From Bactericera cockerelli (Eukaryota; Arthropoda; Insecta; Hemiptera; Triozidae), in assembly GCA_024516035.1 (NCBI GenBank), contig CM044961.1, positions 33,642,953 through 33,706,952 of the forward strand: 64,000 bases of DNA. Reading direction: 5' to 3'. The position numbers were made by a program, and so were the translations under genes. The notes under the pieces are model-generated. The model saw only the letters and a list, made by a program, of their open reading frames with translations, searched no databases and was not told where the DNA came from. Position 1 is the stretch's first letter; every line of letters begins with the position of its first letter. This document shows, piece after piece, positions 36,690 through 55,600 of the stretch.

Positions 36690-37530
36690 TGCTCCCAGGT
36701 TCTGGTGTCGTCGGCGCCACCCCGGGTTCGAACTGAATCTTGCGGTTGATGTGATCGTACAGCCTTAGGAAACTGCAAGCTATCCTGACTTGTAAGGGTT
36801 GGCTAGTCTCTCCTAGTTGCTCCCAGGTTCTGGTGTCGGCGACACCCCGGGTTCGAACTGAATCTTGCGGTTGATGTGATCGTACAGCCTCAGGAAACTG
36901 CAAGCTATCCTGGCTTGTAAGGGTTGGCTAGTCTCTCCTAGTTGCTCCCAGGTTCTGGTGTCGGCGACACCCCGGGTTCGAACTGAATCTTGCGGTTGAT
37001 GTGATCGTACAGCCTTAGGAAACTGCAAGCTATCCTGGCTTGTAAGGGTTGGCTAGTCTCTCCTAGTTGCTCCCAGGTTCTGGTGTCGGCGACACCCCGG
37101 GTTCGAACTGAATCTTGCGGTTGATGTGATCGTACAGCCTTAGGAAACTGCAAGCTATCCTGGCTTGTAAGGGTTGGCTAGTCTCTCCTAGTTGCTCCCC
37201 GGTTCTGGTGTCGTCGGCGCCACCCCGGGTTCGAACTGAATCTTGCGGTTGATGTGATCGTACAGCCTTAGGAAACTGCAAGCTATCCTGGCTTGTAAGG
37301 GTTGGCTAGTCTCTCCTAGTTGCTCCCAGGTTCTGGTGTCGTCGGCGCCACCCCGGGTTCGAACTGAATCTTGCGGTTGATGTGATCGTACAGCCTTAGG
37401 AAACTGCAAGCTATCCTGGCTTGTAAGGGTTGGCTAGTCTCTCCTAGTTGCTCCCAGGTTCTGGTGTCGTCGGCGCCACCCCGGGTTCGAACTGAATCTT
37501 GCGGTTGATGTGATCGTACAGCCCGGCCAG
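36690..37530 (-). repeat. wge: 125/128-bp tandem copies of the winged-eye C-terminal codons and stop
   Basis: GAACTGAATCTTGCGGTTGA recurs at about 36730, 36855, 36980, 37105, 37233, 37361 and 37489 (the real exon), with spacing 125,125,125,128,128,128. Each unit read on the minus strand gives [21 protein letters not shown] and a stop, followed by about 50 nt of 3' flank. The 3-nt length difference is one codon. Confidence 0.93.
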
Positions 37531-37662
37531 GTAGTACAGATCTGTCGGGTCCCTGGTCTCCGCCAGGCGGGTCTGATAGTCCGGCAGAGGCAGCACCTGA
37601 CACTTGTGGGAGATGGTCTGGATGTCGTTCTCGTCGAAGTGGCACGCCTCGAATAGGGCACC
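37444..37662 (-). CDS. wge: wge last exon: end of BAH domain and stop
   Basis: Follows CCCCGCAG. It encodes [33 protein letters not shown] and [19 protein letters not shown], then a tail ending PEPGSN and TGA or equivalent at 37444. The core matches the BAHCC1/TNRC18 C-terminus; the [12 protein letters not shown] tail is not recognised. Confidence 0.9.
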   Translation of the reverse strand, partial: GALFEACHFDENDIQTISHKCQVLPLPDYQTRLAETRDPTDLYYLAGLYDHINRKIQFEPGVAPTTPEPGSN

Positions 37663-52600: not shown

Positions 52601-55600
52601 AAATATATATTAAACGGGAATAAAATGAACCAAACTGGAAGCAAGAATTTTCTACTTCCATTTTGGTTAACTTTGGAAGAGGAAATTTTTCCTCTTCCAA
52701 AAGAAAAATGACTTGCTTCCAGTTTGGTTCATTTTATTCCCGTTTGGTTAACTTTGGTTAGAAAGAAAAATACGGCTTATGATAACTTTTTTTTTCATTG
52801 GACTAGCAAATATTTACCTGGATACAAGCACCTGTACTGCTGCGACCAGTAGGAATATTTACCTGGATACAAGCACCTGTACTGCTGAGACCAGTAGGAA
52901 TAGTTACCTGGGTACAAGCACCTGTACTGCTGAGACCAGTAGGAATAGTTACCTGGATACAAGCACCTGTACTGCTGAGACCAGTAGGAATAGTTACCTG
53001 GATACAAGCACCTGTACTGCTGGGACCAGTAGGAATAGTTACCTGGATACAAGAACCTGTACTGCTGAGACCAGTAGGAATAGTTACCTGGATACAAGCA
53101 CCTGTACTGCTGAGACCAGTAGGAATAGTTACCTGGATACAAGCACCTGTACTGCTGAGACCAGTAGGAATAGTTACCTGGATACAAGCACCTGTACTGC
53201 TGAGACCAGTAGGAATAGTTACCTGGATACAAGCACCTGTACTGCTGAGACCAGTAGGAATAGTTACCTGGATACAAGAACCTGTACTGCTGAGACCAGT
53301 AGGAATAGTTACCTGGATACAAGCACCTGTACTGCTGAGACCAGTAGGAATATTTACCTGGATACAAGCACCTGTACTGCTGGGACCAGTAGGAATAGTT
53401 ACCTGGATACAAGAACCTGTACTGCTGAGACCAGTAGGAATATTTACCTGGATACAAGCATCTGTACTGCTGAGACCAGTAGGAATAGTTACCTGGATAC
53501 AAGCACCTGTACTGCTAAGACCAGTAAGGATACAAGCACCTGTACTGCTGGGACCAGTAGGAATAGTTACCTGGATACAAGCACCTGTACTGCTGAGACC
53601 AGTAGGAATAGTTACCTGGATACAAGAACCTGTACTGCTGAGACCAGTAGGAATAGTTACCTGGATACAAGCACCTGTACTGCTGGGACCAGTATAAGTA
53701 TAAATATAAGTAGTGCTTTATTTAGACTGTCAGCGCAAGACAGGTAGTCCCATTATGCCAACAGTTTAACAAAGCACCTCTTTATTTATTTGAGTATAAA
53801 TACACTAAGTAAGTAGGAATATTTACCTGGATACAAGCACCTGTACTGCTGCGACCAGTAGGCACACATCCGCCTCCCCGGCGTCACGCTGGAGAGAGCC
53901 AGCTTCACCTCCAGAATCACATCCCTCAGCACCTCCTCCTGGGAGTAGATGTTGGGCCGGTGGGCCCTCTCCCCGTCCAACTGGACGGCGTAGATGTCGG
54001 GGGGAGAGATGGCGGTGAGCTGGCCCGCGTACAGGAGACCTGGGAACCGGTCAAAGAGGGGAACTGGTTGGGTGGAAGAGCTTCTTGAAGGAGAATTCTA
54101 CCATATAAAAGTAAGCCCAAAAAAAAAAAAAAAAAAAACTTCACGATTCGGCCCAAATTACCTAAGCGGACCTTTTCCATAGCATGATTCGGCCCCAAAA
54201 AAACACAACATGATTCGGCTCAAACTAACCAAGGGTTGGGTGGAAAAGATTGCCACAGGCAATAACCCCGCCCTTTAGGAAGGACATTTTTCTCTTTTTT
54301 TTTCCTTCTTGTATATTTGTTTAATCTATGGGAACTTCACGATTCGGCCCAAACTAACCAAGAGAGGTTGGGTGGAAGAGATTGCCACAGGCAATAACCC
54401 CGCCCTTTAGGAAGGACATTTCTCTCTTTTTTTTCCTTCTTGTATATTTGTTTAATCTATGGGAACTTCACGATTCGGCCCAAACTAACCAAGGGTTGGG
54501 TGGAAGAGATTGCCACAGGCAATAACCCCGCCCTTTAGGTTGGACATTTCTCTCTTCTTTTTTTTCCTTCTTGTATATTTGTTTAATCTTTTTGTTTTTC
54601 TTTATATTTCATTGTGTTCTTCTGTATATATTTTTTGTTCTACCTAAAAGCTCAACAAAAAAAAAATTACCTGAGTAGACTTTTTCCATAGCATGATTCG
54701 GCCCCCCAAAAAAAACACAACATGATTCGGCCCACAACCCGATTCGTCCCAAAACAAACTATCAAGTTTTGATCCCACACAACTTTTTTTACCTGATATC
54801 GAAAACCTTTTTCATAACCCTTTTTGGGCCGAATCGTATTGCGCCCGTCAGAGAGATAGCGCACGATTAGCTCACTGGTGAGATACTCGCTTCCATGCGG
54901 AAGGTCCTGGGTTCGAATCCCAGAGGCGACAATGTTTTTTGATCAATAAGGCGGCGGACTAGTAACCTGGAGGTCGGTGGTTCAAGTCCCGGATTCAGGG
55001 TAGATTTGGTTAAGCGAGTTTCGAGTAGTTGTGATATCACGAAAGTTTAACAATTCGTCTTTTTTTAGTGTGCTTAATACCGATGCAACGTTTCCTTTTT
55101 GTACCGCTAAACTCACTTTTTTTCGGAAGTACTTTTATTTTTTATTTATTTACTACATGAAAAGTAAATGGTTCAAATATAAATAGAAGTGACAACTTAC
55201 ATTATACATAATATTACATTATACATTATAGCTTACATTATACATAATATTTTTAACTGACCATATGCTGGTTTCTTTCGGCTGTCGTCATCCTACACTG
55301 AGGGCCACACCTATGAAGTATGGTCCATGTCTTGTTCCCTGCACACATCACGAAAGTGATTAACACAAATACAATAACTATGACACAGTGGGCTAGACAG
55401 CACAATTCTCATTTAATTAAAAAAAGCAAATTGACGAATTTTTATTATATTTTTACATACAATATCTGATTTCATTTTTATTTATTTCGTTGATTGTTAT
55501 GTTTTGTAAATAAAAAAGTAATTGATTGAAAAAAAAAAAAAAAAAAAAAAAAAAGATACCTATTGTAAAAGAGATAATTATCGTAAACTCACCCTCGTTG

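Follow-up and report, generated by a model that had tools for sequence, protein, structure and literature searches.

In the genome of the psyllid Bactericera cockerelli, tandem arrays were found in which the end unit includes the edge of a coding exon, with its donor site, acceptor site or stop codon. The stretch analysed, called the window throughout, comprises 64,000 nucleotides (contig CM044961.1, C7:33642953-33706952) of an assembly of 565,017,811 bases in 1,032 contigs; besides it, about 296 kb of genome sequence, partly overlapping, were read. In the window, the arrays belong to a predicted winged-eye (wge)/BAHCC1-like gene on the minus strand and to a neighbouring DCUN1D3-like gene. They are anchored at the exon, with the exon-side copy as end unit, they exceed chance also in exons that were not chosen for repeats, their copy number changes between near-identical gene copies, and some of these copies retain the state before duplication.

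Tandem arrays were called by Tandem Repeats Finder (TRF). The first-pass annotation of the window had placed arrays on the edges of four wge exons and of the DCUN1D3-like gene. All five are present and the end unit of each holds a donor, an acceptor or a stop codon (Table 1), although the 45-bp array, parted from its exon copy by an insertion, does not itself touch exon E5. Most copies of this array read exon end, CCAG|GTAACTATT, exon end again, and the exon copy is identical to the farthest array copy. The insertion is a member of a dispersed element about 105-124 bp long, of which 37 pieces with 94-99% identity were counted among the places scored, and which was apparently mobile recently. 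In the 76-bp array, copies 8-10 show the variants of copies 4, 6 and 7 again, pointing to unequal exchange. The exon contributes as little as one to three bases to a unit (exon D, DCUN1D3 acceptor) and as much as 36 of 45 bp (E5), for donors and acceptors alike. Units read at splice edges run unbroken from exon into intron; as they contain contiguous intron, mature mRNA was not the template, and templating by processed RNA, one of the causes suggested earlier, was rejected. At the junctions of E5, A0, E3 and Z, microhomology of 0-4 bp was deduced from the flanks by eye, and visual inspection of these four junctions, where no motif search was made, revealed no common breakpoint motif. The unit of the E1 array and an unrelated 87-bp array (L050:1956-2380) have a piece resembling TAGCCAACCCTTACAAGCCAGG in common, which is present elsewhere too; a mobile sequence may have become trapped where duplications joined. 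A nearby templated source for the filler in the E1 unit was not found, the filler belonging to sequence present at several places. Five arrays lie wholly within wge exons. Since their periods (21, 63, 42, 12/24 and 12) are all divisible by three, selection seems to filter arrays in coding sequence.

With a probe from exon E5, two further copies of the segment were detected on the same chromosome, P1 near 33.13 Mb and P2 near 37.83 Mb, the window copy (W) being at 33.68 Mb. Exon identity between the copies is 91-99.8%, and P1 and P2 may have arisen by segmental duplication or may represent haplotypes that were not collapsed. P2 contains exons A0 to E1, with exon B interrupted by about 560 bp of inserted sequence (offset 3147-3708 from C7:37822001, 4-bp overlap at the ends); in P1 nothing past the middle of E3 was found within the 44 kb examined. 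At E5, W has 20 array units plus the exon copy, P1 about six units in all and P2 one. Since the P2 donor is directly followed by the intron sequence that in W comes after the last unit, P2 represents the pre-duplication or a fully contracted state. Single-copy states were likewise found in W and P2 at A0 and D. The 76-bp array of E3 has 10 copies in W versus 6 in P2, and at E2 the 24-bp array is retained in P2, with 51- and 71-bp arrays in place of the 251-bp array of W. Differences in repeat number between near-identical gene copies were observed for wge, DCUN1D3 and the myosin and kinase loci described below. Altogether 29 edges of wge and DCUN1D3 were located, nine of which have an array in one or more of the three copies. 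Four of these were not listed before, namely the Z donor, the A0 and D acceptors and the DCUN1D3 exon-4 acceptor (P1/P2 copies, window flank).

Within the window, 30 edges were tested, 4 of them from a gene at 0.8-3.2 kb which we take to be drk/Grb2-like. TRF arrays contained a coding edge in 4 cases versus 0.53-0.63 expected (P from 52/20,000 to 11/20,000 over eight threshold settings). The 45-bp array was left out of this count because of the 121-bp insertion between array and exon copy. The test is post hoc, as the window was chosen for the pattern.

Exon edges in myosin and kinase loci

A sample of 70 exon loci was chosen by myosin-head and protein-kinase Pfam matches and not by repeats. 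It consists of the best 30 of 77 myosin-head matches with 1.5-kb flanks and of 40 kinase exons with 350-bp flanks, hand-picked among 134 matches before the sequence was seen, mostly for partial domains. Using units placed at random within the same loci as null model (20,000 simulations), the edge of the matched exon was found inside 17 of 42 arrays versus 4.31 expected, and none of the simulations reached 17. The enrichment at exon edges that the first-pass annotation had called for was thus found in this sample, and chance inside the window alone was rejected as an explanation. The second kinase set includes near-identical copies of members of the first. When each near-identical pair was reduced to a single locus, the edge lay in 13 of 35 arrays versus 3.54 expected (1/20,000). 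Taken separately, the figures were 9/28 arrays for the myosin set (1/20,000), 4/7 for kinase set 1 (198/20,000) and 4/7 for kinase set 2 (587/20,000). Compared with pseudo-edges, arrays were present at 9/60 myosin edges versus 47/1,560 (P 1.4e-4). Over the whole sample 20 of 140 edges, about one in seven, carry an array. Repeated independent seeding at exon edges, as proposed earlier, was seen outside wge and in two further gene families.

One myosin exon (L032) has a 113-bp array on its acceptor and about 50 copies of a 22-bp unit on its donor, one kinase exon (L063) has a 26-bp array on the acceptor and a 30-bp array on the donor, and at L045 a 37-bp unit is repeated 33 times on the donor. 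Similar edge arrays were found at L041, L050, L034, L025, L039, L044, L055, L067, L109 and L110; the L034 unit occurs once in L035 and the L041 unit once in L039. The arrays at L023, L024, L026, L027 and L028 carry apparent splice sites of neighbouring exons or of another copy of the same exon, which makes the background of the placement test conservative. Peptides from L024, L026 and L023 match myosins (three of four tried), the L044 peptide matched nothing. At less than 100 bp from the matched exon, the only arrays without its edge were L064 and its copy L098. At 100-350 bp, about eight arrays have no legible edge copy (L024-33, L026-22, L050-87, L055-40, L099-42, L101-38, L108-60 and L109-26, with L053-32 ambiguous). 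No array with a score of at least 150 was found inside any of the 70 matched exons. In twenty random 1-kb stretches arrays occurred at one place only. The arrays at this place (L086:776-994, 48 and 32 bp) contain, read on the minus strand, ACCAG|GTATGT, which resembles a donor.

Origin of the arrays

In our judgement the chances are even that a duplication process focused on exon boundaries acts in this genome, followed by minisatellite expansion. A stretch of about 20-250 bp across an exon edge would be tandemly duplicated. The exon-side copy would keep its conserved donor, acceptor or stop and continue to serve the gene; the remaining copies would land, cost-free, in the intron or the 3' flank; the duplication would be tolerated because the exon-side copy stays intact. 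Slippage or unequal exchange would expand two copies to minisatellites of up to about 50 copies. The exon-proximal site is probably the one spliced. The first breaks or slippage were presumably tied to the exon edge, by transcription, splicing or chromatin, rather than the edges being multiplied by selection. Only tentatively, and at somewhat less than an even chance, do we propose that exon edges are a preferred birthplace of minisatellites via a splicing- or transcription-coupled DNA process, and that splice-edge satellites form a genome-wide class at the density found in the sample.

Several observations weigh against this explanation. Two of the nine local array edges are stop codons and not splice sites, and the stop-codon ends of kinases with long open reading frames carried an array in 0/6 cases. 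The 4 edges of the drk/Grb2-like exons (0.8-3.2 kb of the window) had no arrays. Arrays without a recognised edge exist, in the window (131 and 31 bp) as well as in the sample (L025-44, L026-22, L027-29b, L031-187, L039-196, L050-87 and L108-60). For kinase set 1, the comparison with short-range pseudo-edges was not significant (5/40 versus 4/80, P 0.14). The myosin and kinase exons, being best or hand-picked matches, are not a random exon sample. The proposal that boundaries between GC-rich exons and AT-rich introns favour the process is weak: median GC content in the last 60 bp of the exon was 0.55 at array edges versus 0.48 without array, a difference that is not significant and only suggestive (P = 0.08).

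If duplication were uniform, purifying selection might purge out-of-frame arrays from exons, those at edges and in introns would survive, and the edge cases got noticed. The triplet periods of the five exon-internal wge arrays and the lack of arrays within the 70 matched exons agree with such a filter. However, it cannot push the edge density past that of introns, whereas edges lie about fourfold over uniform placement even when arrays on neighbouring exons are assigned to the background, and few arrays occur in the random stretches. We disfavour this explanation as quite improbable. As uniform duplication minus coding damage cannot lift edges above introns, either an edge-linked lesion or selection for copied edges is called for. 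In the latter case, duplications would arise everywhere and splice-site copies would be favoured for strengthening or buffering exon recognition amid mobile elements. In line with this, among 287 intronic copies from 22 array rows (15 donor and 7 acceptor), 280 have kept the core splice dinucleotide, which was mutated less often than the rest of the unit (10/574 versus 438/11,963 sites), and the edge is included even where few exon bases were copied (P1 exon D, DCUN1D3 acceptor, L067). Nevertheless, this conservation is not significant (permutation P 0.08), and recency plus homogenisation predict the same. Because arrays on stop codons contain no splice site, copy numbers are erratic and about 120 of the 140 sampled edges are without array, we favour the edge-linked lesion and regard selection for redundant splice sites as unlikely.

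Births could also be evenly spread, with the conserved exon copy serving as constant template for homogenisation, which would keep edge arrays while intron arrays decay. Copies in edge arrays diverge little (0.4-9% per site, depending on the array) and their splice cores are mostly intact, which is consistent with such persistence. Yet births between copies only a few percent apart already look edge-biased (E5, A0, D, DCUN1D3 acceptor, L034, L041), compared, by hand and on a small scale, with four cases in introns that are short or have two copies (P2-127, absent from the W and P1 lists, L040-20, L055-40 and L101-38). We hold this explanation to be improbable. An assembly or haplotype artefact, with erroneous copy numbers or whole duplicated loci, appears very improbable. 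Many of the near-identical pairs (wge copies, myosin and kinase exons) are separated by no more than a few megabases and are recent segmental duplicates or possibly uncollapsed haplotypes, and the W copy has frame breaks near homopolymers. The arrays, however, contain ordered internal variants, already cited in the first-pass annotation against simple assembly error, are interrupted by mobile-element insertions that differ, and vary in length between copies; moreover, no assembly error is known that would be expected to select splice sites.

Gene models and neighbouring sequence

The minus-strand gene was assigned as wge/BAHCC1-like from its SH3_TNRC18, BAHCC1-like Tudor and BAH matches, the last below the Pfam cut-off; the structures nearest to its BAH exon are BAHCC1 and TNRC18. 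The exons modelled in the gene have canonical edges. The Cacopsylla melanoneura 'Protein winged eye' aligns over the E3|E2|E1 joins and ends at the same stop region, and the E5|E4 join matches Ranatra and mouse relatives. A search for a same-species transcript spanning E5|E4 or E3|E2|E1 returned relatives only. Compared to P2, the W copy shows frame breaks in a 21-bp coding array (49283-49538, exon E3) and near a G run (exon Z, L017), which may indicate a decaying duplicate or assembly errors; the myosin and kinase samples are independent of this copy. The DCUN1D3-like product matches database protein P0001 at 100% (rounded) and, next, proteins of the psyllids Cyamophila willieti (75%) and Diaphorina citri (72%), which identifies the animal as a psyllid. 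The P0001 match agrees with use of the first stop of DCUN1D3 and says nothing about splice arrays.

The intron between E2 and E1 contains a long terminal repeat (LTR)-retrotransposon-like element (39609-45038), presumably of the BEL/Pao-like class, with an open frame of 1,809 amino acids and a 98% identical copy past the P2 gene. At 6231-7464, arrays of 155, 64 and 16 bp lie beside open frames resembling a retroelement.

Table 1. Coordinates of arrays, exons and the insertion in the window (positions from the first nucleotide of the window)
Feature	Position	Strand	Remarks
45-bp array, about 20 copies of E5 donor segment	52809..53694	-	unit = 36 bp exon + 9 bp intron
Exon-edge copy of 45-bp unit with conserved E5 donor	53818..53862	-	edge 53827
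121-bp insertion of dispersed element	53697..53817		between E5 exon copy and 45-bp array
76-bp array x10 of E3 donor segment	48349..49110	-	unit = 28 bp exon + 48 bp intron
251-bp array x3.4 of E2 acceptor segment	46141..46994	-	unit = 77 bp exon + 174 bp intron
24-bp array x38.7 adjoining E2 array	46978..47906	-	unit like intronic part of 251-bp unit; x31.8 in P2
125/128-bp array x6.7 at last-exon end (E1) with stop codon	36678..37523	-	unit includes 42-bp piece found elsewhere
153-bp array x3.2 with DCUN1D3-like stop codon	24118..24602	+	edge 24198; 149-bp array at matching P2 place
131-bp array x2.9 in D-E5 intron	54212..54589		without exon edge; counter-example
31-bp array x54 downstream of wge	34920..36608		without coding edge; counter-example
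wge exon E1 (last coding exon, BAH domain end)	37444..37662	-	stop edge 37444
wge exon E2 (BAH domain)	46006..46217	-	acceptor edge 46217
wge exon E3	49083..50725	-	donor edge 49083
wge exon E4 (Tudor half)	51406..51830	-	
wge exon E5 (SH3 + Tudor half)	53827..54039	-	donor edge 53827
wge exon D	55593..56823	-	acceptor single-copy in window, 30-bp array in P1
wge exon A0	63578..63703	-	acceptor single-copy in window, 87-bp array (about 10 copies) in P1
DCUN1D3-like last exon	23984..24198	+	stop edge 24198; acceptor single-copy in window, 108 bp x2 in P2

Known repeat systems and significance

Splice-edge arrays are minisatellites with a placement rule of which no description was found among open-licence PubMed Central papers. 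They share with ordinary minisatellites and variable number tandem repeats the head-to-tail units of 20-250 bp, copy-number variation and unequal exchange (76-bp array), the 251-bp unit being above the usual size; they differ in that the end unit contains a coding-exon edge. Nor did searches of these open-licence papers turn up a genome in which splice-edge arrays are as dense as here. Recent intron gain was considered as an origin and rejected, the intron being older than the array. Potato reportedly offers a case of intron gain by tandem genomic duplication. In this process, as outlined in parts of PMC3443670, a segment with a splice-like AGGT is duplicated, copies come to lie in an intron, and an exon that had no interruption before gains one. 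The psyllid arrays resemble it in that an AGGT-bearing segment is duplicated and copies lie in the intron, but here, unlike in the process outlined there, the introns pre-exist (P2 has the E5 intron without array, and the join is kept in bug and mouse), and existing sites were multiplied with no new intron. AGGT is present at both segment ends at E5 (CCAG|GTAA), and not at the E2 and D acceptors or the E1 stop.

According to passages of De Grassi and Ciccarelli (2009, PMC2812944), human genes that lie in segmental duplications can have internal tandem repeats at their exon-intron boundaries. These and the psyllid arrays are alike in being of minisatellite size, in varying between recent gene copies and in lying, in part, at exon-intron boundaries. 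In contrast to the human repeats as portrayed in those passages, the arrays described here occupy about one in seven sampled edges, include the splice site within the unit and leave the exon structure intact. Tandem-repeat genes of the polyubiquitin type possess dual-specific splice sites, according to an excerpt of PMC10809524. The 45-bp array agrees with these in having AG|GT-bounded units with a length that is a multiple of three; unlike the genes of that excerpt, the units of 76, 251 and 37 bp and those of the acceptor arrays do not keep the frame or lack AG|GT at their bounds. In dual-specific repeat genes the intron length is a multiple of the coding repeat unit; here it is not, as the E5-E4 and E3-E2 introns include much sequence besides the repeats. 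Sections of PMC4039745 describe CeRep25B of Caenorhabditis elegans, a minisatellite located in introns close to alternative exons. Minisatellites are over-represented near splicing decisions in both cases, but CeRep25B is presented there as one dispersed 24-base intron family, whereas the psyllid units were copied from each gene's own exon edge.

The splice-edge arrays bear on how tandem repeats arise and on how exons are recognised. Tandem duplications are commonly held to be placed by sequence or by chance. A rule that places them where exon and intron meet, in genes that are unrelated, would suggest transcription- or splicing-linked mutation, and the mechanism is testable, since near-identical gene copies form before-and-after pairs. 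If splice-edge satellites are genome-wide, the introns concerned would contain many extra intact splice sites for the spliceosome to ignore or use. Such arrays would represent natural experiments on the choice of the spliceosome among 2 to 50 near-identical sites, and would be a strong source of exon-linked length polymorphism that changes fast.

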